Shown here piece by piece: positions 2,785-48,523 of a stretch of 53,042 nt of DNA (position 1 is the stretch's first letter; every line of letters starts with the position of its first letter). This stretch comes from an uncultured Methanobrevibacter sp. (GTDB lineage Archaea; Methanobacteriota; Methanobacteria; Methanobacteriales; Methanobacteriaceae): positions 1-53,042 of the forward strand of contig OMVY01000012.1 of the NCBI GenBank assembly GCA_900314635.1, written 5' to 3'. A program made the position numbers and the translations under genes. The notes beneath the pieces are model-generated. The model saw only the letters and a list, made by a program, of their open reading frames with translations. It made no database searches and had not been told where the DNA came from.

Positions 2785-4002
2785 CTACAATATATCTGAA
2801 TAACATTCTTCAATAATACTCAAACTATTGGTATATGTATTATCTACTATATCATATTCTTTATCAAAACCTTTATTAAGAATTTGAACTAGGCTATCGA
2901 AACTAAAAATAGTTTCAACTGAATCATTCGAAATATTTTCATCAATTCTTTTACATTTCTCTTTTAACATAATCTTTTGATAAGGAATACTTATTTCACT
3001 AGTATGATTATTTGGATGGGCATATAATAAATGTTGATCTGGTGTTAAAACAATTATATTTTCATAACAATAAGAAAGTTCGGGGAACCTTGACCTAGGA
3101 AATATATGATGTAATTGAGTACCAATACCTTTGTGTTCATCACAAACTTCAGAAAACCCATTTCTATATTTTTGATTAAATTGGCGTAAGAACTTCATAG
3201 CTTTGTTTGTTTTATGTTCAATTACATTTACTAAATGTTTATAATCTGGTGTTCTTTCCCATTCTTTACGAGTTTTGTCTCCTGGTTTGTTTGCATAAAT
3301 ATCTCTAAAATTCTTTTGAGCATACCTTAAATCTGGAAAAGTTATAATTTCTTTTGATATATGTCCTCCACGAGTACCCAAAGATTTATTAAAACAAGCT
3401 AACGGATTTAAAACTTTTATAAAAATACGTCTAACTTCAACTGCATTATTTATGGGAGTATGTGAAATAGTAAAAGTAACAAACTTTTCTTTAGTTTCTT
3501 TATATTGTTCAGGTGTTTGATTAACAAAAAAATCTTCAAATGAATCTAATAAATCTGAATCATATAGAACTTTTGAAATATATTTTACTAAGAATTTATA
3601 AGCAAATTTTTCGCTGAAAGATATATATTCTAAAATATTATAATTGTTAATTCTATAAAAATTTCTATTGCCCTTTTTATATTTAAGTAATACATTAGAA
3701 TAAGCTAATAATTCTATTGGTTGAGCAAAAAATTTATCATATTCATTTCTAGCGTTAGTGTTTAAAATATGAACTTTATTAAAATAATCACCTATTACTT
3801 CTGCAGAATATGGATGATCCCAAATATCTTTAGCGGTGAACCATGAATCAATATCATCATTTTCTTTAACATAATCAATAATACAATCTGCTATAACACT
3901 AACCACATCAATAGCACATTTTTGATCAATCCAACGAGCATTATTAGTCTTTCTAACATCATAATTGTTAGATTCCAACAAAATATCAATTAACTCTTCC
4001 AT
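2785..4002 (-). CDS. HNH-family restriction endonuclease, copy B
   Basis: This roughly 405-residue protein has an HNH nuclease core near residue 298: the pair in QLHHIFPRSRF, then ENIIVLTPDQH and a following AHPNN. The N-terminus carries NNYDVRKTNNARWIDQKC, which is also present in its upstream neighbour, and the two proteins align along their full length. It is last in a minus-strand run of C5 methyltransferase, N6-adenine methyltransferase and two HNH proteins, so the likely role is cutting unmodified foreign DNA. The ATG at 4002 follows a GGTTGAT site; the TTG three codons upstream lies in that site. Recognition specificity cannot be read. Confidence 0.75.
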   Translation of the reverse strand: MEELIDILLESNNYDVRKTNNARWIDQKCAIDVVSVIADCIIDYVKENDDIDSWFTAKDIWDHPYSAEVIGDYFNKVHILNTNARNEYDKFFAQPIELLAYSNVLLKYKKGNRNFYRINNYNILEYISFSEKFAYKFLVKYISKVLYDSDLLDSFEDFFVNQTPEQYKETKEKFVTFTISHTPINNAVEVRRIFIKVLNPLACFNKSLGTRGGHISKEIITFPDLRYAQKNFRDIYANKPGDKTRKEWERTPDYKHLVNVIEHKTNKAMKFLRQFNQKYRNGFSEVCDEHKGIGTQLHHIFPRSRFPELSYCYENIIVLTPDQHLLYAHPNNHTSEISIPYQKIMLKEKCKRIDENISNDSVETIFSFDSLVQILNKGFDKEYDIVDNTYTNSLSIIEECYSDIL

Positions 4003-4164
4003 AATTATCAACCCAAATATAAAAATTCCAAAAAATATTTCTCTTACTGGCTAATTCTTTAGAACCATCAGCAATTCGTAGTTTCTTCATCCTAAACGGA
4101 ATCATCACTTAATTACAGTAATGACATATAATTATATGTATTTATATTATTATATTAAAAAATT

Positions 4165-5409
4165 TTATATATTTTCTGAATAGCTTTCATTAATAATATT
4201 AATCACATCATTATAAGAATTACCAACAATCTCATAATCTTTACTAAGACCGATATTAATAACTTCAACTAATTTATCAAAGCTATAAATAGTTTGAACA
4301 GTTTCATTTGAAATATTTTCATCGATTCTTTTGGCTTTTACTGTTAATAATTTTTTTTGATACGATTTATTAATCTCATGATAATTAATCTCATGAGGGT
4401 TATTTTCGTTATTTCTGTGAGCTCTTGCATGCTGATTAGGAGTTAATACAATAAGATTCTCTAAATAATCTGAAATCTTTTTAAAATCTGATTTTGGAAA
4501 TATATGATGTATTGGATAAGCTTCATCTTCATCAACACCACTAACTTCAGAACGGCATCCCCTATATGTGCAATTATGTTCACGTAAAATCCTTTTAGCC
4601 TTAGTAGTTTCACGTTCTATAACTCTTTCAACTGATTCGCATCTTGCCCTATATTCCTCTGTTTGTTTCCACTCCTCACGAGAAGTTTTCTTAGGTTTGT
4701 GTGCATAAACATCCCTAAAATTTAATTGATTATACGATAAATCAGAAAAGGTAATAACTTGTTTAGACATATAACCCCCAGATGTTCCAAATTTACTATT
4801 ATAACAAGCTAAGGGATTTACTATTTTTGTAAAAATACGATTTACTTCCTTGTGTTTGTTAATCGGAGTGTGTTTAATAGTAAAATCACCAAAATCTTTT
4901 TTAAGTTTTTTAAATTCCTCTTTAGATTGGGAAGTGAAAAAAGTTTCAAACATATCATAAATTTCACTATCATTAAGAACTTTAGGAATATAATTTATTA
5001 AAAACCTATAAGCAAAACGGTCACTGGTAGCTATATGACTTAATAATTCATGATTATTAATTCTATAAATATTTCTATTACCTTTTTTAGACTCAAATAA
5101 TATGTGTGAATAACCGAATAATTTTAAAGGTTGAGCAAAAAATTTATCATACTCATTTTTAGCTTTTTCATGCAAAACATGGACTTTATTAAAATAATCT
5201 CCAACACTTTCTACAGAATATTCAAAATCCCATATATCCCTAGTAGAAAATTCTATATTCCTATCACCTTTTGAATCTACATAATGCAATATGCAATCAG
5301 CAATAATGTATAATACATCAGGAGTACATTTCTGATCAATCCATCTAGCATTCTCAGTTTTTCTAACATCATAATCATATTGAACTAAAAATTCAATAAT
5401 TTCTTCATC
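4165..5409 (-). CDS. HNH-family restriction endonuclease, copy A, with disrupted start
   Basis: This is a paralogue of the downstream gene, with the HNH core YPIHHIFPKSDF followed by LIVLTPNQHARAHRNN. The first ATG in frame is at 5289, but homology continues upstream in the same frame for 40 codons (DYDVRKTENARWIDQKC matches copy B). At the expected start the sequence reads ATGAAGAAATT, where copy B has ATGGAAGAATT, so the ATG at 5408 is out of frame by one base. No other ATG, GTG or TTG is available before a stop. The gene may be inactive, start from a rare codon, make an N-truncated protein from 5289, or carry a sequencing error. The whole homologous frame is annotated. Confidence 0.65.
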   Translation of the reverse strand, partial: DEEIIEFLVQYDYDVRKTENARWIDQKCTPDVLYIIADCILHYVDSKGDRNIEFSTRDIWDFEYSVESVGDYFNKVHVLHEKAKNEYDKFFAQPLKLFGYSHILFESKKGNRNIYRINNHELLSHIATSDRFAYRFLINYIPKVLNDSEIYDMFETFFTSQSKEEFKKLKKDFGDFTIKHTPINKHKEVNRIFTKIVNPLACYNSKFGTSGGYMSKQVITFSDLSYNQLNFRDVYAHKPKKTSREEWKQTEEYRARCESVERVIERETTKAKRILREHNCTYRGCRSEVSGVDEDEAYPIHHIFPKSDFKKISDYLENLIVLTPNQHARAHRNNENNPHEINYHEINKSYQKKLLTVKAKRIDENISNETVQTIYSFDKLVEVINIGLSKDYEIVGNSYNDVINIINESYSENI

Positions 5410-5439
5410 TTTTATAATACCACATCCTAATAGAAAAAA

Positions 5440-6765
5440 CTACTTTCTACTCAATCCAAAAAACATTACACTATTCGAATCAATATTTAAACTGCGAGTA
5501 CTATAATTTCTAGCAATTCTATAAAATTCTTCAAAAGTTTCTCCACTAAAAAACTCTAAATCATCCTTAGTTATATCATAATCAGATTTATTCTCCAATA
5601 TTGCAACAGAACCATTAACAACAGTATTTTTAGGTTTTTTAACAAGCCTTGGATAATAAGTCATATTAGGACATAAATAAACATCATCCCTATCCAAATA
5701 CTTATAAACAGAACATTTTTTTAAATCATTTAAATCAATAAAACCATCATAACCTTCAATATTTATTATACCTCCACCATCACGAAGAATATTCCTACTT
5801 TTTATAACCCTTATTTCCCCATCATCTTTTAGAAGTTTATTTGTAATTTGGCGATCTCTAAACGAATTAAATACGTCAAAAACCATATTTGAAGCTAATT
5901 CATCAAAAAAATCATTCCGATAAATTATCCAAGAAGGAAATTCATCACTAGTAATTTTGCTTTGTTTTTGAATATTTATTAAATCTTTTGTAACAGAATA
6001 AGATATAGTTTCATTAGGTTTTTTAGAGGTATTAATGAATATAGCTATTGTTTCAATTAAAACCCCTTTAAATCCTTTTTCTCCGAAATCGACAATTTTT
6101 TCTATACTGAATTTATTTATTCTTTCACGACAAAGAGAAAAATCAGGATTATGTAAAAAATATTTAGGCATTACCAGAACTACATTTTCAGATAAATGAG
6201 ATGCCTTTTGTAAGAAGAATCCTGCAATATTTTTAGTAACATTATCTTCAAACATAGATGAATAAACATCTAATCCCCTCGCTTTAGATAGTTTAAGAAA
6301 TGGGGGATTACCAATAATTAAATCATAATTACCCTCAAAATTATGTGTTAAAAAATTGTGATTGAAATAATTTATCTCAACATTGCTTGGAATCTGTTTA
6401 AATTGGTTTAATAATTTAATTAAAGCAATGCTTTCTTCATCAATATCATTAAAATCTATAATTAATTTTTTAGCATTTTTGTATTTATTAATAATAATTG
6501 ATAAAAAATTACCTACTCCTGCAGATGGTTCTAAAACTCTTATTGTTTCCTTTTCAATATTTGGTAAATACTCTTCAATAAGAGTTAATGTTTTAAAATC
6601 AGTATAATATGCTGCAGTTTCAGTACGTTTATTATTTACAATCTCAGCTATTCTAGATAATTCTTCAATACTTAAATCTTCAGGATTATCTTTAATAAAT
6701 TCCATGACTTTCTTTCTATCAGATAAGGCGTGTTTGTCCACTATTTTTTTTAGATTTTTTTCCAT
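5440..6765 (-). CDS. N6-adenine-specific DNA methyltransferase
   Basis: The SAM-binding motif LEPSAGVGNF is at residues 78-87 and the catalytic NPPF at 153-156 (DLIIGNPPF), the order of a gamma-type N6-adenine enzyme. The C-terminal half is probably the target-recognition part. At 441 residues it is the size of a stand-alone type II methyltransferase. It starts inside the 3' end of the C5 methyltransferase gene, a 47-base overlap that implies co-translation, and is followed by two HNH nucleases. It probably protects one strand of the site they cut. The ATG at 6765 has only a weak GGATG-like site before it. Confidence 0.85.
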   Translation of the reverse strand: MEKNLKKIVDKHALSDRKKVMEFIKDNPEDLSIEELSRIAEIVNNKRTETAAYYTDFKTLTLIEEYLPNIEKETIRVLEPSAGVGNFLSIIINKYKNAKKLIIDFNDIDEESIALIKLLNQFKQIPSNVEINYFNHNFLTHNFEGNYDLIIGNPPFLKLSKARGLDVYSSMFEDNVTKNIAGFFLQKASHLSENVVLVMPKYFLHNPDFSLCRERINKFSIEKIVDFGEKGFKGVLIETIAIFINTSKKPNETISYSVTKDLINIQKQSKITSDEFPSWIIYRNDFFDELASNMVFDVFNSFRDRQITNKLLKDDGEIRVIKSRNILRDGGGIINIEGYDGFIDLNDLKKCSVYKYLDRDDVYLCPNMTYYPRLVKKPKNTVVNGSVAILENKSDYDITKDDLEFFSGETFEEFYRIARNYSTRSLNIDSNSVMFFGLSRK

Positions 6766-7918
6766 TTAATAATACATCCTTAATGTTTCTAGCTATTTTC
6801 TGCATAATTATAGTAGGTACTGCTTCACCAATGCATTGCCTTATATTAATCTCATTTTTCTTTAAAAATTCTTGTTTCTCTTCTAAAGATAAATTATTCA
6901 GTTCTTCTTCACTTTCTTCAACCCATTTAAAATTATCAGGAATATTCATCAATAACATTAATTCTCTAATACTAAAAACACGGTCATCTACTGGATGAAC
7001 AGTATTCTGACTAGCTAAAATATCATTGCGAGTGTGAATACAAGGACCCACCTTATCCCAACATTGTCTAGTATATTTATCTCCATTTTTCTTTACATTA
7101 GGTACAATTTTTCCATCTACTATTTTATGAGGTCTCTTATTTATGTCCTCATTATCAAAAGCAGATTCTCCTTCAGAAATATCAGAAATCCAATTTCTCA
7201 TATCTTCTCTATAAGGTTTAAAATTATGGTAAATATCAGTAGAATCAATTTCACCCATTTCTTTTAAACTTGGTAAATCACCTATTACATCAATAAGATT
7301 CTTAGGTTTCTCTTCTTCAGGAAACAAATCTAAAGGATGAACTTTATTAATTAAATCTCTTCTTACACCAATTGCTAATGATCTTGGGCGGCTACTATTT
7401 GCCCCATAATCTTTAAAATTAATAATTTTTTCTTCATAAAGATAATCATTAGATAACCAGTCTTTAAAAGCTTGTCTAATTTTCTTCTCAACATCATGAT
7501 CAATGCATTTAGTATTCATAAAAGCCCTAACATTTTCAGAAATGAAAAATTTAGGTTTAATTTCTTTAACTATTTCTAAAGACTCAACAACTAATGAATT
7601 CTTTTCAATGGTTCCATCATTCTTTTTATGATTAGCCACAGACATTCCTTGACAAGGCGGAGTAAAAATAATTACATCAACGTCTACAACGTTTTCTTTT
7701 TCCTTAAAATTAGTTATAGCATCAAATAATTGCTGTTTAATTTCATCTTGTGTTATATCTCCTAAAATATAACCCTCATCATATTTAAGTTTATTATTAA
7801 TTTTTTGAACATTTAATCTACGTTCAATTAATTCAGAAGTAGCTATACCATCAAAACCCTCTACTTTAAAACCAAAACATCCTACTCCTGCAGAACTAAA
7901 TAAACTTATGTAATTCAT
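6719..7918 (-). CDS. DNA (cytosine-5-)-methyltransferase
   Basis: A complete C5 methyltransferase of 399 residues. Motif I is near the start (SLFSSAGVGCFGF), motif IV is TPPCQGMS with catalytic Cys about residue 89, and motif VI is ENV at 128-130. A variable region containing DKVGPCIHTRND follows, and the C-terminal motif is near IGEAVPTIIMQKI. It transfers a methyl group from SAM to cytosine in a specific site. It is first in the minus-strand run and overlaps the adenine methyltransferase. A GAGGGT site precedes the ATG, and a TTTATAAAT box near 7957-7965 is the likely promoter of the whole unit. Confidence 0.9.
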   Translation of the reverse strand: MNYISLFSSAGVGCFGFKVEGFDGIATSELIERRLNVQKINNKLKYDEGYILGDITQDEIKQQLFDAITNFKEKENVVDVDVIIFTPPCQGMSVANHKKNDGTIEKNSLVVESLEIVKEIKPKFFISENVRAFMNTKCIDHDVEKKIRQAFKDWLSNDYLYEEKIINFKDYGANSSRPRSLAIGVRRDLINKVHPLDLFPEEEKPKNLIDVIGDLPSLKEMGEIDSTDIYHNFKPYREDMRNWISDISEGESAFDNEDINKRPHKIVDGKIVPNVKKNGDKYTRQCWDKVGPCIHTRNDILASQNTVHPVDDRVFSIRELMLLMNIPDNFKWVEESEEELNNLSLEEKQEFLKKNEINIRQCIGEAVPTIIMQKIARNIKDVLLNGKKSKKNSGQTRLI

Positions 7919-7970
7919 AGAATACCCTCTTTTTATTAATATATTAGGTGATATTATTTATAAAATTATT
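7919..7970 (-). promoter_or_regulatory. Promoter of the restriction-modification unit
   Basis: On the minus strand a TTTTATAAATAAT TATA box lies about 40 bases before the C5 methyltransferase ATG, giving a short leader that contains GAGGGT. No controller-protein gene or obvious C-box is seen, so control may rely on gene order alone. Confidence 0.45.
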
Positions 7971-8197
7971 TTTTTTAAGAAGTTTATACATAATTTTTTG
8001 TTTAAATCTATTTATAAAAATTGAGAAAGAATGGATATGAAAAAATTTAAAAATATTTTAATTTGACAAAAATAGAATTATTTAAATCCCTAAACTATCT
8101 TTAAATAGAAAAATGTAATTTGAATAAATTAGGATAAATAATAAAATTTTCAGGAAAATATTTTTTCTTAGAATCCATAACCCTCCAATAATAAATC

Positions 8198-8914
8198 TTA
8201 AGAATTATTTTCATCTATTAAAGTTTTTAAGTCTTCAAGTGATAAAATTTCATTCTTTTTCCTATGAATCATCCTATGGCAATTAGCACATAGAACAACT
8301 AAATCGGTTGAGGGATCTATTTCTGATTCTTCGTTTATTTGAGAAAGTGGTTGAACATGATGAACTTCAATATAATTTGTTCCCCTTTCACCATAAACAT
8401 CTTTAAAATTAAATCCACAAGCCATACAAGTAGTGCCATGTATTTGAACTGCTTGTTTTCTTAATTTAGGATTTCTTTCATACAGGGTTGTGAAAATTTG
8501 TTTCTTTTGTCCCTCTTTTAGAACAGTATATTCCTCTGCAGTTTCTAATTCAATATCTTTTTTTACTAATTCATAATTTATAGAATCACTCTCTAAAATT
8601 GATATTAACTCATCATAAGATGGATTATTTTTAGATTTAAGTTCAATTATAGCTTCTTCAATACTCATACCTTGAAAAATTCCCCTAAATTTTCCTAAAC
8701 CTAAATGATTCAGAATTGCCCAAGATTGCCAACCTCTAGAATCTTTTTTCCATCCCTCATCATCGGGATTATTAAGATTTAAAATAATTGTATCAATGTT
8801 TTTAGTTGAAAGATTATCGAATAAGTATGCTTTTACAACAGAAACACGTTCTTCAAAAGAGTATGCATTAAATTCTCTTTCCCTGTATTTTATTTTTATG
8901 TCAGGTATTTCCAT
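8198..8914 (-). CDS. McrA-like zinc HNH endonuclease
   Basis: The C-terminal third is a zinc-dependent HNH domain: CMACGF, then YIEVHHVQPLSQ, then LVVLCANCHRMIHR, giving two CxxC pairs around the His-His core. The N-terminal 140 residues are unrecognised and contain GWKKDSRGWQSWAILNHLGL, possibly a DNA- or base-recognition region. Similar architectures occur in modification-dependent or stand-alone restriction enzymes. It is separated from the methyltransferase unit by about 280 bases with its own AGGATGAT site, so it is a neighbour rather than a subunit. Whether it attacks modified or unmodified DNA is not readable. Confidence 0.75.
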   Translation of the reverse strand: MEIPDIKIKYREREFNAYSFEERVSVVKAYLFDNLSTKNIDTIILNLNNPDDEGWKKDSRGWQSWAILNHLGLGKFRGIFQGMSIEEAIIELKSKNNPSYDELISILESDSINYELVKKDIELETAEEYTVLKEGQKKQIFTTLYERNPKLRKQAVQIHGTTCMACGFNFKDVYGERGTNYIEVHHVQPLSQINEESEIDPSTDLVVLCANCHRMIHRKKNEILSLEDLKTLIDENNS

Positions 8915-9637: not shown

Positions 9638-10147
9638 ATGGAAACTAAGAATTTAGCAATTATATGTGTGGCAATTATTATTTGTGTGGCCATTATAGCT
9701 GCTGCATTTGTCATGGTAAACAATAACTCCAATGATGATGTTGTAGTAGTTAATGAAACCAATGAATCCAGTGATTCTAGTGTAAATGAAACATCTTCCA
9801 GCAGTAGTGATTCATCAAGTGCTGAACTTGGATCCCGTGAGAATCCTAAGACTGAAATAGATTATAATAATGGACATGACGGTGAGCTCAACCCAAACTA
9901 TGGAGATTATTATGTATTAGATGGCGGTCTTTTCCGTGATGATAATGAATATCTTGGAGGAGCAGGAACATATACATTCATAAGCGGAGATGATCAGGAT
10001 GGAAAACATAGTTATATAACTGGAGTATGGTATGGTAAGTGCAAGGATCATGGATGGGTTGAATTGAATTCAGACAAGCATTGTCCTATATGTGCTGAAA
10101 AAGGCATGGACGCAAGAGTATACAAAGGCACAACATATCAGGCATGA
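9638..10147 (+). CDS. Membrane-anchored surface protein with C-terminal zinc-ribbon-like motif
   Basis: An N-terminal hydrophobic helix (about residues 5-28) is followed by an Asn/Ser-rich linker with SSSSSDSSS, the usual stalk of methanogen surface proteins. The outer domain contains DYNNGHDGELNPNYGDYYV and a C-terminal CKDHGWVEL...CPICAEKGM segment with four possible Cys/His ligands. The protein is likely anchored in the membrane facing outside. Function is unknown. AGGTGG precedes the ATG at 9638. A candidate zinc site outside the cell is unusual and could instead be disulfides. Confidence 0.65.
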   Translation: METKNLAIICVAIIICVAIIAAAFVMVNNNSNDDVVVVNETNESSDSSVNETSSSSSDSSSAELGSRENPKTEIDYNNGHDGELNPNYGDYYVLDGGLFRDDNEYLGGAGTYTFISGDDQDGKHSYITGVWYGKCKDHGWVELNSDKHCPICAEKGMDARVYKGTTYQA

Positions 10148-15397: not shown

Positions 15398-15820
15398 ATG
15401 CAAAATATTGAAAAAAGCCCTCAGTACGATTTGTATCGTTTGACTAAAAATTTATACTTAAATAAGGAAAAACTCGTACCTGAAAATGCTGATATGCGAT
15501 GTGTAAAAAGCACAATTATAAATAGAGCTTATTATAGTTCTTATTCATTAGCATCAGTATGGCTAAACTATAATTTTGATTTTCAAATCAAACCTCCTAA
15601 AAAATTTAAAAATTATAGACCCTTTGTTTCAGGACATATACAAGTCTTAAAAGCTCTTTTAAAATATGAAAAGGAGGACACTAATTTATATCTTGGTCGT
15701 CTAAAAAATTTAAGAACTAAAGCAGATTATCATTTGGAATCCAAAATATATGATGATGAAGTCGAGGATGCTTTAGTTTATATGAAAAGAATATTCAATG
15801 ATTTAAAATTTGGTGATTAA
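15398..15820 (+). CDS. HEPN-domain protein, probable RNase toxin
   Basis: This 140-residue all-helical protein shows the HEPN pattern: NRAYYSSYSLASV (residues 42-54) in the first long helix and RTKADYH (106-112) in the later helix, an Arg-x5-His arrangement within the R-x4-6-H signature of HEPN RNases. The gene ends GGT GAT TAA, and this GGTGAT serves as the ribosome binding site of the next gene, whose ATG is one base after the stop, so the two are translationally coupled. HEPN toxins usually pair with an MNT nucleotidyltransferase; none is here. The start ATG follows a GTGATA site. Confidence 0.75.
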   Translation: MQNIEKSPQYDLYRLTKNLYLNKEKLVPENADMRCVKSTIINRAYYSSYSLASVWLNYNFDFQIKPPKKFKNYRPFVSGHIQVLKALLKYEKEDTNLYLGRLKNLRTKADYHLESKIYDDEVEDALVYMKRIFNDLKFGD

Positions 15821-15821
15821 A

Positions 15822-16187
15822 ATGCAGGAAATTCAAGATCAGTCAAGTTGTATATATGAAATGCATTATGATGAAGAATGCTCCTCAAGTACTGGAATAG
15901 CCTCACTTAATGAAAAATTAAGTAATGATGAAAAAATAAATATTTTAATTGATCATTTGGAGCTTCTTTCAAAGAAATATGGTTTGGGAGACGTGAAGTT
16001 CTGGTATGAGCCTTTTTCAGATGGTTATAAAATGTTTTCAGTCCAGATTTGTCCAGATCATAGTGATGACGAGAGGATAGAGGTTCTTGATAAAATTACG
16101 GATGAAATGCGGGATTTTGCAAAAAAGAATAACATGGAACGATTTTTTGCTTACTCATGTGTCCTGTATGATTATGATGTTGAATAA
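15822..16187 (+). CDS. Small acidic partner protein 1 of the HEPN gene
   Basis: This 121-residue acidic protein starts MQEIQDQSSCIYEMHYDEE. An N-terminal Ser/Asp/Glu-rich region precedes a compact alpha/beta-looking domain: INILIDHLELLSKKYGLGDV, KFWYEPFSDGYKMFSVQI and NNMERFFAYSCVLYDYD. I do not recognise the family. Tight coupling to the HEPN gene (one-base gap, shared ribosome binding site) suggests an antitoxin or regulatory partner. The GTG upstream lies inside GGTGAT and was not used. A paralogue follows 23 bases downstream. Confidence 0.65.
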   Translation: MQEIQDQSSCIYEMHYDEECSSSTGIASLNEKLSNDEKINILIDHLELLSKKYGLGDVKFWYEPFSDGYKMFSVQICPDHSDDERIEVLDKITDEMRDFAKKNNMERFFAYSCVLYDYDVE

Positions 16188-16210
16188 GTTTTTAGAAATA
16201 TGGTAGTTTT

Positions 16211-16615
16211 ATGAATGGAATGCATTATGATGAATATTCCTCAAGCACAGAAATATCATCCCAAGAAAATTTAAGTGATAATGAAAAAATAAATATTCTA
16301 ATTGATGAAGATTCCTCAAGTATTGGAATATCATCCCATGAAAAATTAAGTGATGATGAAAAAATAAATATTTTAATTAGTCATTTGACTCTTCTTTCAA
16401 AGAAATATGGCTTAGGAGAAGTGAATTTCTGGTACGAGCCTTTTTCAGACGGTTATAAAAATTTTTCAATCAAGATTTCTCCAGATAAAAGTGCTGATGA
16501 GTTAATAGATCTTCTTTATAAAATTGAAGATGAGATGGAGGATTTTGCAAAAAAGAATAACATGGAAAGATTTTTTGCTTACTCATGTATTCAGTATGAT
16601 TATGATGTTGAATAA
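16211..16615 (+). CDS. Small acidic partner protein 2, paralogue with internal duplication
   Basis: The C-terminal 80 residues match partner 1 closely (LLSKKYGLGEVNFWYEPFSD and KKNNMERFFAYSC in both). Its N-terminal acidic segment is present twice: SSSTEISSQENLSDNEKINI and then SSSIGISSHEKLSDDEKINI. This is a tandem gene duplicate followed by a partial internal duplication. GGTAG lies before the ATG. It ends the short HEPN operon. Retention of both copies suggests that copy number or variant specificity matters, but no function is established. Confidence 0.62.
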   Translation: MNGMHYDEYSSSTEISSQENLSDNEKINILIDEDSSSIGISSHEKLSDDEKINILISHLTLLSKKYGLGEVNFWYEPFSDGYKNFSIKISPDKSADELIDLLYKIEDEMEDFAKKNNMERFFAYSCIQYDYDVE

Positions 16616-43217: not shown

Positions 43218-43634
43218 TTTTTTAATTTATTTTTTATTTTCAAATTTTTTATTTTCAAATTTTTTTTAATTTACAATTTTTTTATTTTCAAATTTTAATT
43301 TTTATAAAATTATTCATTTAGATATTTTAAAAAAATTATTTTATTTTTTTTCAATTTTATAATTTCTAATTTTTCTATTTTCAAATTTTCAATTTTTTTA
43401 ATTTAGGATTTTTTCAATTCATTTTTAAATTTTAAATTTTTTAATTTCTGATTTTTTAAATTTATTAAATTTGCAATTTTAGATTTTTCAATTTTTAAAA
43501 TTTTGTAATCTAGAAAATTTTTTTTCGATTTTTTCTAAAAAATCAATTTTTCATTTTGAAAAATTCTTCCCTGAAATTATCAAAATTATTTCGTTATACC
43601 AAGGTTTAACGAACTAGATAACTATCTTCTAAAT
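43218..43634. other. Low-complexity A/T region
   Basis: About 340 bases of alternating TTTTTATTTTCAAATTTT-like runs follow the membrane-protein stop, then a less simple segment with GGTTTAACGAACTAGATA (about 43602). No gene is seen. Confidence 0.5.
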
Positions 43635-43710
43635 AAAATGCTCTAAAATAGCATAAATTTTTAACTAGATGTAGATATAGTTGTTTCATTTTTGACTTTT
43701 AGAGCATTTT
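43635..43710. repeat. Perfect 14-bp inverted repeat, 48-base loop
   Basis: AAAATGCTCTAAAA (43635-43648) and TTTTAGAGCATTTT (43697-43710) are exact reverse complements. The loop contains AACTAGATGTAGATATAG, echoing AACTAGATAACTA just upstream of the left arm. A T-run ends the right arm. It may be the end of a small RNA, a terminator or a remnant of a mobile element. Confidence 0.75.
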
Positions 43711-43854
43711 TTAATTTTCGACATATTTTCCCTTTTTACACTTGAAATTTATCATTAATATTTGTATATTTATTTAGTAATACTTTGGAAAAATCGAAAA
43801 TTTGTTGTATGATTATCAAAATGTTTGGTAAAATAAGAATGTTTTATAATATTG

Positions 43855-43968
43855 AAATAGTTTATACTCTAATAAATAGTTTGTATTATACAAAATAGTT
43901 TTATATTATAAAAATAGTTGTGCTTATTATAAATAGTTTAATACTTTACAAATAGTTTTTCCCATATG
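43855..43968. repeat. Six iterons at exact 19-bp period
   Basis: AAATAGTT begins at 43855, 43874, 43893, 43912, 43931 and 43950, six copies at a constant 19-base period. Units include AAATAGTTTATACTCTAAT and AAATAGTTTAATACTTTAC; the first eight bases are invariant and the rest is looser and A/T rich. The layout resembles replication iterons or a multi-site operator. It lies 360 bases before the first HTH-repeat gene. Confidence 0.85.
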
Positions 43969-44328: not shown

Positions 44329-45066
44329 ATGAAGAGAAGAAAACTGCCGAGCATCAAGGAAAGCGAAAATATTCCAATCGACCTGGAACCAAGCTTGTTT
44401 GGAGGATTTAATTATTCAAATGGAAATCCTGCGGATTTTACATTGAATGATATCATAAGCATAAACAAGTTGTATCATAATGGGGTTTATGACACATTAG
44501 AGCTGGCAGACAAATTCGATTTGGAAGAAAGACTTATTCGACAGATAATCTGGCGTTTTGATGCAGGTGACTTCGATAAATTTTTGAAAAATTTCAAAGA
44601 TCTTGACGTTCTTGATTTGGAGGATATAGACTTCAACAGCAATAATTTTACAAATGAAAAGCTTAAGAAACTGGATTTATTTATTTTTCACAAAAACCTA
44701 TATAAAAGCGATGAAAACATATGTGAATTGCTGGATTTGGATATTGAGACAATCAAAACTTACCTTGAATATGGAAAAACAGGAATCATGCCCTATTACA
44801 AGTTTTATCAGGATTACAAGGATGCTGATGAGCGTAATGCTTTAAAAGAGATTGAAGATGATTTCAGAAAAAGCGATGAATTGATTAAAGTTTTCATTTC
44901 ATATACTTATCGCGGAATAAGCATGGAAAACATATCAAAACTGACTGGAATCGATTTGAAAAAGGTAAATACCTGGCTTGATTTGGGAAAAGAAGGAAAA
45001 GAGCCTTTTGATAAATTTTATGAAGATTATCTGGAGGCTGTGGAATTCAGGGATAATCTTCGTTAA
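44329..45066 (+). CDS. HTH-repeat protein A (terminase-small-subunit-like modules)
   Basis: The N-terminal module TLNDIISINKLYHNGVYDTL leads to a helix-turn-helix and DAGDFDKFL. Two further modules have the pattern SDENICELLDLDIETIKTYL then EYGKTGIMPYYKFYQDY, and ISKLTGIDLKKVNTWLDLGK followed by EGKEPFDKFYEDYLEA. The W/Y-L-x-x-G-K-x-G-x-x-P-Y/F-x-x-F-Y pattern is like the DNA-binding HTH of phage terminase small subunits. No other enzyme domain is seen. It is first of three related genes downstream of the iterons. TGTTGATAAA precedes the ATG. Confidence 0.7.
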   Translation: MKRRKLPSIKESENIPIDLEPSLFGGFNYSNGNPADFTLNDIISINKLYHNGVYDTLELADKFDLEERLIRQIIWRFDAGDFDKFLKNFKDLDVLDLEDIDFNSNNFTNEKLKKLDLFIFHKNLYKSDENICELLDLDIETIKTYLEYGKTGIMPYYKFYQDYKDADERNALKEIEDDFRKSDELIKVFISYTYRGISMENISKLTGIDLKKVNTWLDLGKEGKEPFDKFYEDYLEAVEFRDNLR

Positions 45067-45207
45067 GAAATATGATTTTATCAATTTTTAAAATTTCAAA
45101 AAAATTTATTCATCTTTATTAATAATAATTTTTTTTAAATGATTAAGAATTATATAATCAAAAACACAATATTTATATGATAATCTAATTAATTTTACAG
45201 GCATAAC

Positions 45208-46242
45208 ATGAGAGAACTTCCAAACACTAAAGAATATGAGCCTTATGATTTAAGTCTCACACTAGACAAGCGTTTTTTATTTAAAAATGGCAAATTTGCA
45301 CCATTCACCCTGCATGATCTGATTCAAATCAACTATTCCTACCACTATGAATGCTATTCAATATCTGAATTGTCTGATGAATACGGAATTTCATTCGATG
45401 TCATTAAAAGAATTCTAAGCCGCTATCAAAAAGGAGATTTTGACAAATTCATCAATGATGAATATTTTAAAGACCTGAATGAAGGTGAACTTAAGAATCA
45501 TTATTCAAGATTTGAAGATTTTTTAAAAGGAAAATCTGCAGATTTCACTTCTTTGACAATGAAAGGATACAGCATCGCTAAATCCTGTGAAATCTCTAAT
45601 TTAGACATTGATGAAGTTGAATCATGGCTTTTAAAAGGCGAGAAAGGCTTGAAGCCATATGACATCTTTTATGATGCTTTTCTTGAAAGCAAAGAGCAGC
45701 TTCTTGATGAAAAGGCTCCTCTTTTAATAGAAAACATAGAATCAGGGCATTCTTTGGCAAAAGCATCACAGATGGCGGACTTATCTATTAATGAAGTGAA
45801 GATGTGGATAGAAAAGGGCCATGGGAAAATAGAACCTTATGCTGATTTTTATAAGGATTACTCTAATGCTTTAAAGGCAGTTAACAAGAAAAGAATAGAA
45901 AATTTCCTTAAACTCATCAAAGAAGGCAGGGAACTTAATGTTGCAGCCATTCAATCAGGTTTGGATGTAGGGGATGTCAAGAATTGGATTAAAAAGGGAA
46001 AAGAAGATTTAAGTCCATATAATCAGTTTTATAAGGAATATGTGCGATCACGGCAAGATCATATAAAGGACAAGCTGAATCTGTTTCTCTTGAAAACCGA
46101 AGAAGGAAAGGCAATCAATCAGTCTGCATTTGAGGCAGGTTTGGATGATGAGGATGTTAGAACATGGTTGAAATATGAGGAAGAAGGAAAAGAACCATAT
46201 ATTGAGTTTTATCAGGATTATAAGGAAGCACTGGATAAATAA
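45208..46242 (+). CDS. HTH-repeat protein B with five modules
   Basis: The N-terminal module (TLHDLIQINYSYHYECYSIS then QKGDFDKFI) matches that of protein A. Four further modules of roughly 55-60 residues follow, with cores IAKSCEISNLDIDEVESWL, LAKASQMADLSINEVKMWI, NVAAIQSGLDVGDVKNWI and NQSAFEAGLDDEDVRTWL, each ending in a P-Y-x-x-F-Y-x-x-Y-like helix. The repeats suggest binding to multiple adjacent DNA sites. AGGCATAAC precedes the ATG. It is 141 bases after protein A. Confidence 0.72.
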   Translation: MRELPNTKEYEPYDLSLTLDKRFLFKNGKFAPFTLHDLIQINYSYHYECYSISELSDEYGISFDVIKRILSRYQKGDFDKFINDEYFKDLNEGELKNHYSRFEDFLKGKSADFTSLTMKGYSIAKSCEISNLDIDEVESWLLKGEKGLKPYDIFYDAFLESKEQLLDEKAPLLIENIESGHSLAKASQMADLSINEVKMWIEKGHGKIEPYADFYKDYSNALKAVNKKRIENFLKLIKEGRELNVAAIQSGLDVGDVKNWIKKGKEDLSPYNQFYKEYVRSRQDHIKDKLNLFLLKTEEGKAINQSAFEAGLDDEDVRTWLKYEEEGKEPYIEFYQDYKEALDK

Positions 46243-46305
46243 GTAAAATAATGATGATTTTAAAATAAGAATATCTTAAATGGTAATTGAATAAAGGGGA
46301 TTTTT

Positions 46306-47208
46306 ATGCAGAATAATGATTTGGAAAAAGACCTGATTGAAAAGTCTGTTTTAATAATGAAAGGAGTAACAAGTCTTCAAGAAATCAATAGGATTCTTGG
46401 AATAGAGGATTCTACAAGCGAAAAGTGGCTGGAACTTGCCGAAGAAAATATCGAACCTTATAAACGCTATGCCGAGGAACTTAAGCTGTTTTTGGAAAAG
46501 AATGGTTTGAACTATGATAGCATTGTCGAAAACGACTTTAAAATATTCAAGGATAATGAATTGGACTTTTTATTAGAGGATAACTATCTGTTTTCCCTTG
46601 ACAATACAAGAGAAGATAAGATAAGCATTTTAAAGACCAGAGTGCATCCTGAAAATCTAAGAGATTCAATAGAAAATCTCAAAAAACAGACCTCCAAGCT
46701 TGATGATGTGTTCAATCTGCTCATGCAGTTGGATGAATCTGCTTTAATAGGACTTTTAGATGATGGAAATTTTGAAAGCAAGTCAAAGGAAGAAATTGCA
46801 GATAAGATCATATCTGATCTTCGTCTTAAGAACATTGATAAGTTGATAATGAATCTTGAAAGCTATTTGTCAGATTTGAACGAGTTCAATATCACTTCAC
46901 AACTTTCTGAAAATAATGTCCTAAAATCCGTTGATGGAGATAATGTCCTCGAAGCAGATGATAATAAAGTTATTGAGGATGATTTAGGCAATGATTCATT
47001 GAATGAAGGCAATTTCGAGTCATTTGTTGATGGGATGATGAATGACTTTTTAAACGCCTTGAAGGAAGGAAAATCCGAAGAGGAGGCTATGGACATATCA
47101 GGAGTTAACTCAATCACCCTCATGAGCTGGAAGATTATGGCCGAAAGCGGAGACGAGACTTTTAAGAAGTTCCATGATGAATATATGAATCTAATGAAAA
47201 ACAATTGA
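46306..47208 (+). CDS. HTH-repeat protein C with long acidic linker
   Basis: The first module, QEINRILGIEDSTSEKWLEL then EENIEPYKRYAEEL, and the last, AMDISGVNSITLMSWKIMAE then TFKKFHDEYMNLM, are diverged versions of the modules in A and B. Between them lies about 190 residues of acidic helical and disordered sequence (DGDNVLEADDNKVIEDDLGN). It may bridge proteins or DNA. GGGGATTTTT precedes the ATG; it is 63 bases after protein B, so probably co-transcribed. Confidence 0.65.
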   Translation: MQNNDLEKDLIEKSVLIMKGVTSLQEINRILGIEDSTSEKWLELAEENIEPYKRYAEELKLFLEKNGLNYDSIVENDFKIFKDNELDFLLEDNYLFSLDNTREDKISILKTRVHPENLRDSIENLKKQTSKLDDVFNLLMQLDESALIGLLDDGNFESKSKEEIADKIISDLRLKNIDKLIMNLESYLSDLNEFNITSQLSENNVLKSVDGDNVLEADDNKVIEDDLGNDSLNEGNFESFVDGMMNDFLNALKEGKSEEEAMDISGVNSITLMSWKIMAESGDETFKKFHDEYMNLMKNN

Positions 47209-47458: not shown

Positions 47459-48523
47459 ATGAAAGGATTGGCAAGAATTGAACAAGACGTACTTGGCTGG
47501 GTAGACATTGAACTCGATGAATGTGGACCTTACGATGCAATCTGCAGACCATTGGCTATGGCTCCATGTACTTCAGACGTGCACATCGTATGGGGTCATG
47601 CATACATGAGCGATGCTCCTAACCGTGTAGTTGGACACGAAGCTACTGCTGAAGTTGTAAAAGTAGGTGACAAGGTAAAAGACTTCAAACCTGGAGACCG
47701 CGTAATCGTGCCGGCTATCACTCCTGACTGGCTTACCGTACCTGCAGAACAGGGATTCTCTCAACACTGCTACGGAATGGGTACCGGTATGAGTTTTGTA
47801 ACCTTCAAGCACGGAGTATTTGCAGAACAGTTCCATGTAAACCAAGCAGACGCTAACCTGGCTCACCTGCCTGAACATGTAAGTCTTGAACAAGCTGTTA
47901 TGATATCCGACATGATGACCACAGGTTTCTATGCTGCAGAACTTGCAGACATTCAGCCTGGTGATACAGTAGCATGTTTCGGTATCGGTCCTGTAGGTCT
48001 TATGGCATTGGCTGGAGCCCAAATCAAAGGAGCTTCACATCTTATTGCTGTCGGAAGCCGTCCAGCTGCAATCAAAGTAGCTAAGGAATATGGTGCAAAT
48101 GATATTGTGGACTACCACAACGGAAACACTGTGGACCAAATCATGGATCTCACCGATGGAAAAGGAGTAGACAAGGTTGTAATCGGTGGAGGAGGAAAAG
48201 ACACCCTCTCTGAAGCTTTATCTGTTCTTAAAGTCGGTGGTATCATAGGTAATGTATTGCACTATGATGGTATTGAAACCATCCCTATAGATGGACTTTC
48301 CTGGGGTCAATGACTTTCTGATAAAACCATTCGCGGAGGAGTATGTCCTGGAGGACGTGCTAGAATGGAAAAACTGGCTAATCTTATTGAATACGGCCGT
48401 TTCGACTCATCCAAATTAATCACTCACAAATTCAATAAATTCGATGACATCGAAGAAGCCATGATCTTAATGAGAGACAAGCCACGTGACTTAATCAAAC
48501 CTGCAGTTATCCTTGATGACTAA
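47459..48523 (+). pseudogene. adh: NADP-dependent secondary-alcohol dehydrogenase interrupted by in-frame TGA
   Basis: MKGLARIEQDVLGWVDIE, the zinc ligands Cys in MAPCTSDVHIVW, His-Glu in GHEATAEVV and Asp in MISDMMTTG, and GSRPAAIKVAKEYGANDIVD are the signature of NADP-specific isopropanol dehydrogenases such as the Thermoanaerobacter brockii enzyme. The frame stops at TGA (48311-48313) after GLSWGQ. It then continues in the same frame with LSDKTIRGGVCPGGRARMEK to a TAA at 48521, a perfect fit to the family C-terminus and to its about 352-residue length. The TGA aligns with a Gly, so GGA to TGA is the simplest cause. Codon use is that of a highly expressed gene. Confidence 0.85.

Follow-up and report, generated by a model that had tools for sequence, protein, structure and literature searches.

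Stand-alone tandem helix-turn-helix array proteins in a Methanobrevibacter genome, with some larger relatives beside defence genes in Methanobacteriaceae

Three adjacent genes of an uncultured Methanobrevibacter sp., here called A, B and C, were found to be stand-alone members of a family of tandem helix-turn-helix (HTH) array proteins of the Methanobacteriaceae. They lie in the window, i.e. the whole stretch of 53,042 nucleotides analysed here (bases 1-53042 of contig C26 in a genome of 2.29 Mb), where all three occupy the + strand after a 1.1-kb AT-rich gap: gene A at 44329-45066 (245 aa), gene B at 45208-46242 (344 aa) and gene C at 46306-47208 (300 aa). Large proteins of the same archaeal family contain arrays that arose by multiplication of one module of these proteins, and a subset of the large proteins is encoded next to PbeA/PbeC/DndE-like genes or BrxD and helicase genes. 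With a probability of about 0.4, we interpret A, B and C as trans-acting orphan recognition or adaptor arrays related to subunits of defence systems, acting by a mechanism that we infer below. The first-pass annotation had proposed an undescribed DNA-organising, replication or regulatory system; it did not contain the reading, suggested in part by the larger relatives, of a link to defence islands.

The three genes are intact. Codon periodicity follows GC1>GC3>GC2 in each of them (about 0.42-0.46, 0.21-0.26 and 0.31-0.38 GC at the first, second and third codon positions) and the gaps between the genes contain 13-19% GC. TATA-like sequences were recognised by eye upstream of A and of B, as was an SD-like AAAGGGGA preceding the ATG of C. 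As C carries this SD-like site and starts 63 bp after B, the two likely form an operon and may be co-transcribed. No Pfam or NCBIfam model matched A, B or C above cut-off, in keeping with the earlier view that the whole proteins belong to no described family, and no recognised Rep or Par domain was detected in them.

The proteins are built from modules of two kinds. The T module of about 55 residues was searched for with a profile made from 181 modules of other loci, after removal of window sequences, and was detected twice in A (A-T1, a TerS-like HTH, at 44662-44832 and A-T2 at 44875-45045; E of 5e-11 and 1e-15), four times in B (B-T1 at 45526-45696, B-T2 at 45706-45873, B-T3 at 45883-46053 and B-T4 at 46066-46233; 2e-12 to 2.5e-16) and twice in C (C-T1, the weakest, at 46327-46494 and C-T2 at 47029-47196; 2.7e-4 and 8e-16), whereas none of 600 shuffled A, B or C proteins reached E<0.01. 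Alignment of 17 T modules gave the majority pattern G...G.EPY..FY, and a Trp within the third helix is almost invariant. The first module of A (44386-44595) and of B (45253-45462) is of the other kind, N, a homeodomain-like HTH of about 70 residues which ends in RII.RFD.GDFDKFL and shows invariant positions and a basic third helix in the alignment. The N module of B, which was also recovered in the predicted structure, resembles the homeodomain-like HTH_28, and that of A matches copies in the large array protein L018 of genome G007 at a phmmer E of about 1e-14. Hence A consists of one N and two T modules and B of one N and four T modules, and C carries its two T modules on either side of an acidic helical middle region (46495-47028). 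Earlier, about three, five and two module copies had been reported, all with a conserved G-K-x-G-x-x-P-Y-x-x-F-Y tail; the tandem HTH organisation stands and the tail belongs to the T modules, but the N modules lack it, and the counts of three in A and five in B came from counting N along with T. Of the three supposed paralogues, A and B are plainly paralogous to each other (38% across residues 2-163 of B), whereas C is linked to them through its two T modules only. Elsewhere in the window, at 15810-16615, another pair of neighbouring paralogous ORFs (125 and 134 aa) was seen; within the second, a 75-bp stretch is duplicated in tandem.

An AlphaFold2 model of B, built on a 17-row alignment, confirmed the HTH expected from the sequence, with HTH units joined by long shared helices at a mean pLDDT of 79.8. 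Each T unit is predicted to comprise a helix, a turn, a recognition helix and then a helix of 28-29 residues that runs into the next module. T2-T4 were mostly modelled above 85 and B-T1 poorly, and at a pTM of 0.44 the arrangement between modules is uncertain; the model of C was of low quality everywhere but in its last module. Foldseek gave no significant match against the PDB, and in BFVD about 1.5 modules gave high-probability matches with E>0.1 to small viral proteins, some of which are named terminase small subunit.

Judging from profile matches, T and the HTH of the terminase small subunit (TerS) of archaeal tailed viruses, present as proviruses in the same archaeal family, are homologous. 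The best PHROGs family for B was the terminase small subunit phrog_4102 (E=1.6e-8 over three stretches; 1e-3 for C and 0.016 for A). The provirus TerS genes L059 and L060 of two related genomes (136-139 aa) match this family at 2.6e-23 and 2.2e-26 and are directly followed by TerL (2.6e-67 and 2.6e-36). As the T profile finds these phrog_4102 genes that precede TerL (5.5e-10 and 1.3e-7), T is homologous to the HTH of true TerS proteins, and the resemblance to terminase small subunits noticed at the outset is sustained. The best phrog_4102 match is confined to positions 15-91 of 166, and the remainder of TerS, i.e. the oligomerisation and TerL-binding part, was not found in A, B or C; lacking this part and a TerL neighbour, they were rejected as TerS. 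A phage remnant was rejected as well, since searches of phages, plasmids and viral contigs gave no match to B and the flanking genes include neither packaging nor structural genes of phages, where the absence of a large terminase, portal or other phage gene had already been remarked. As proviruses of this host family carry a TerS homologous to T, A, B and C could be read as packaging decoys, free TerS-like modules that would disturb viral TerS-pac recognition or TerS assembly, but as the match to TerS ends with the HTH region and the giant array proteins are linked to other gene sets, we regard this as very improbable.

The profile search across archaeal genomes that the first-pass annotation had suggested was run with T. 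The module was present in 58 of 139 genomes of the Methanobacteriaceae, for the most part arrayed in proteins 750-1690 residues long, whereas another 13 genomes from the order and phylum gave no match. Among the loci read, 34 ORFs that contain T modules encode 754-1686 aa. Apart from these, T was found in proteins of about 240 aa with two modules and in a genus-conserved single-module gene of 79-90 aa. Such a one-T protein, conserved in the genus at 70-90 aa, lies at L011:4359-4631, with matches in G006, G009, G012, G013, G015, G016 and G018. A DUF1232 (YkvA-like) gene adjoins T-array genes at 15 loci. At the 17 loci of the largest giant cluster, none of the neighbours was recognised as a defence gene; a DUF4145-like N-terminus, suspected by eye for its 17 members, had no Pfam support and was dropped. 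Outside the window, A and B match L018 at 5e-70 and 7e-68, far better than all else. C matches a 1686-aa protein of its own genome via T modules, and L086, a 1285-aa array protein of G007, via a T module and its middle region, the first part of which aligns at E=3.5e-6.

The defence linkage of T arrays is clear from neighbour counts for a subset of the loci read. In the same genome as A, B and C (G000), contig C18 (L009 1-15999) encodes the 1686-aa ORF with ten T modules, which adjoins PbeC (1.4e-183) and a small gene in the DndE position; divergent from it are BrxD (3.2e-79), a BrxHI/HII-SngC-type helicase (3.7e-162) and orf443, and PbeA lies on the same contig near its end. PbeA and PbeC also adjoin the array relatives L018, L075 and L076. 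A giant array gene is adjacent at 7 of 14 BrxD loci, where BrxD forms part of a trio recurring in Methanobacteriaceae with an Lhr-type helicase, called by the PADLOC BrxHI/BrxHII and SngC models, and an unnamed gene (L060, L069, L071-L074, L087, L150 and L151). Most PbeA loci showed no T array nearby. PbeA, PbeC and DndE were not found beside A, B and C, nor does any defence gene in the window adjoin them. At 2785-8914 of the window, a cluster of two HNH-type proteins, an N6-type and a C5-type methyltransferase and another HNH protein appeared restriction-modification-like by eye, with low GC3 measured in two of the genes.

One such array lies in a Pbe-like operon, a kind of operon whose order here is often methyltransferase, PbeA, PbeC, small DndE-position gene and a variable fifth gene. 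Five genomes whose PbeA shares 71% identity with the G007 protein have a fifth gene of about 320 aa, the product of which closes with a Zn-ribbon and a short domain read by eye as a winged HTH. L018 is the orthologue in G007: its residues 18-325 align with this fifth protein (E=3e-74), and the roughly 720 residues beyond 325 comprise seven or eight copies of N along with one T module. As shown by this alignment of sequences, the array of L018 is a C-terminal extension of the fifth Pbe-like operon protein, placed after the Zn-ribbon part, a segment that recurs in several giants.

Since the C-terminal array of L018 is the counterpart of A and B, C corresponds to a portion of L086, and no orthologue of the cassette was found in other genomes nor any close relative in GTDB contigs, the three genes could also be non-functional leftovers, i.e. 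fragments of giant arrays without their N-terminal and Zn-ribbon parts that persist by chance. We consider this doubtful, as three frames are intact with coding periodicity and separate start signals, and A and B each begin at a module-unit boundary. An empty-site comparison did not reveal an insertion boundary, the flanking zinc alcohol dehydrogenase gene being in other contexts in relatives. The frame of that gene (window 47459-48523) is broken near 48310 into 284 and 52 aa, while its 95-99% identical relatives have full frames of about 354 aa; it is either a pseudogene or a sequencing error.

The composition of the modules was considered for what they may bind. All three proteins are acidic, with pI values of 4.3-5.1, and the mean charge of their T recognition helices is -1.1 against +2.0 in two provirus TerS, B-T3 being the sole basic one among the four of B; DNA binding by these acidic T modules is thus putative only. 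The whole-protein charge of A and B lies near the median of window ORFs. The third helices of N were net basic in nine aligned copies counted by eye, and DNA contact is best supported for N rather than T modules, as far as sequence can tell. T modules share 25% identity within a protein and 23% between proteins, their most variable column lies in the recognition helix, and the recognition helices of the four T modules of B are all different. Appended arrays with divergent modules and a variable recognition helix suit arms that recognise varied targets, though the same pattern of divergence would also follow from weak constraint.

In the reading as orphan arrays, the arrays would be multivalent recognition or adaptor arms that bring ATPase, helicase or nuclease machinery to a particular DNA or DNA-protein complex, with preferences that differ from module to module. 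DNA is probably contacted by the basic N module; the T modules, which are more acidic, may have a weak affinity for DNA or may interact with partner proteins. A, B and C would act in trans as orphan arms, adding to or blocking the specificity of a resident system, for which the 1686-aa array protein with the PbeC, PbeA and BrxD genes on contig C18 is the candidate; their role may be likened to that of an orphan specificity subunit. If the arrays are specificity arms, they would form a recognition component of methyltransferase-linked Pbe-like systems that is absent from the descriptions available in the Pbe papers, they would be a case of hosts re-using a packaging-protein module of archaeal viruses, possibly against viruses, and with up to ten different modules per chain they would be open to a search for a recognition code. 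A fuller account, in which Methanobrevibacter-type archaea domesticated a viral terminase HTH module as recognition arrays of Pbe/BREX-like immunity and A, B and C serve in trans as exchangeable specificity arms used against viruses, is unlikely in its entirety.

A MarR regulator and redox genes lie near A, B and C, which along with their small size, HTH fold and own TATA-like and SD-like signals would fit ordinary local regulators, i.e. multi-HTH transcription factors for their own or a few neighbouring genes. This too seems unlikely to us because the closest relatives are giants with some defence neighbours and not regulators, four unlike T modules in one chain are unusual for a local regulator, and the recognition helices are acidic.

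Upstream of A, the iteron array reported earlier does exist as six AAATAGTT cores at exactly 19-bp spacing on the + strand (43855-43957). It is part of a separate conserved intergenic element (window 43590-43957) that also contains an imperfect palindrome of 25-28 bp (TTCGTTA.AC...GT.TAACGAA) and a TTTTACACTTGAAAT motif, which we take to be mini-ORB-like. The syntenic site of the element is 3' of a gene for a helicase of about 2400 aa in G000, G016, G009, G010 and G002 (L097, about 9670-10100; L125-L128), with similar core arrays and palindrome in all five genomes and TTTTACACTTGAAAT in most; a further copy, matched by blastn at 70% over 406 nt (E=1e-37), is in the window. In G016, G009, G010 and G002 the search for relatives of B found none, and since the same element occurs there, the array is judged to belong to an element independent of A, B and C. 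The idea of module arrays facing iterons in a replication or DNA-organising role is not supported, and A, B and C were rejected as partners of the array, the four unlike recognition helices of B being ill suited to six identical cores. Iteron-binding replication or partition proteins would otherwise have been suggested by the exactly spaced cores and by TTTTACACTTGAAAT beside them, near-copies of which (TTTTACACTTGAAAC) occur twice upstream of the cdc6/orc1-like gene of the genome (L130); given the copies syntenic in four genomes and elsewhere in G000 without A, B and C, the differing recognition helices of B and the acidic modules, we find this explanation quite unlikely. The cassette is now separated from the 19-bp-repeat element, which is a candidate origin-like or protein-binding locus and merits its own study as an origin-like site.

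Among known systems, provirus TerS of PHROG 4102 has an HTH module homologous to T, but it comprises one module and a further part and precedes TerL, whereas A, B and C have two to four T modules and no TerL partner, and A and B carry N modules. Pbe (PbeABCD) systems have been described (PMC6459918) and recast as CxC-ABC/DndE systems with an HKD-SF2 nuclease, a small protein and methylases (PMC10853773); the component lists in these sources, as far as available, name no HTH-array subunit. What A and B match best is the C-terminal array of a fifth protein from such an operon, and in their own genome an array protein stands beside PbeC, but A, B and C lie outside any such operon. For the BrxD/BrxHI pair of type-2 BREX and the SngB/SngC pair of Shango, seven such loci have an adjacent giant T-array gene; the likeness is one of the named genes, and A, B and C are elsewhere in the genome. 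The BREX proteins BrxA, BrxC and PglZ contain several HTH per chain, proposed as DNA-recognition surfaces (PMC12839542), and the openly searchable text on Pbe and multi-HTH BREX proteins (PMC6459918, PMC10853773, PMC12839542) describes no TerS-like array subunit. T arrays share with BrxA, BrxC and PglZ the presence of several HTH in one chain, but going by the available descriptions of these proteins they are set apart by an HTH of another type, in up to ten copies.
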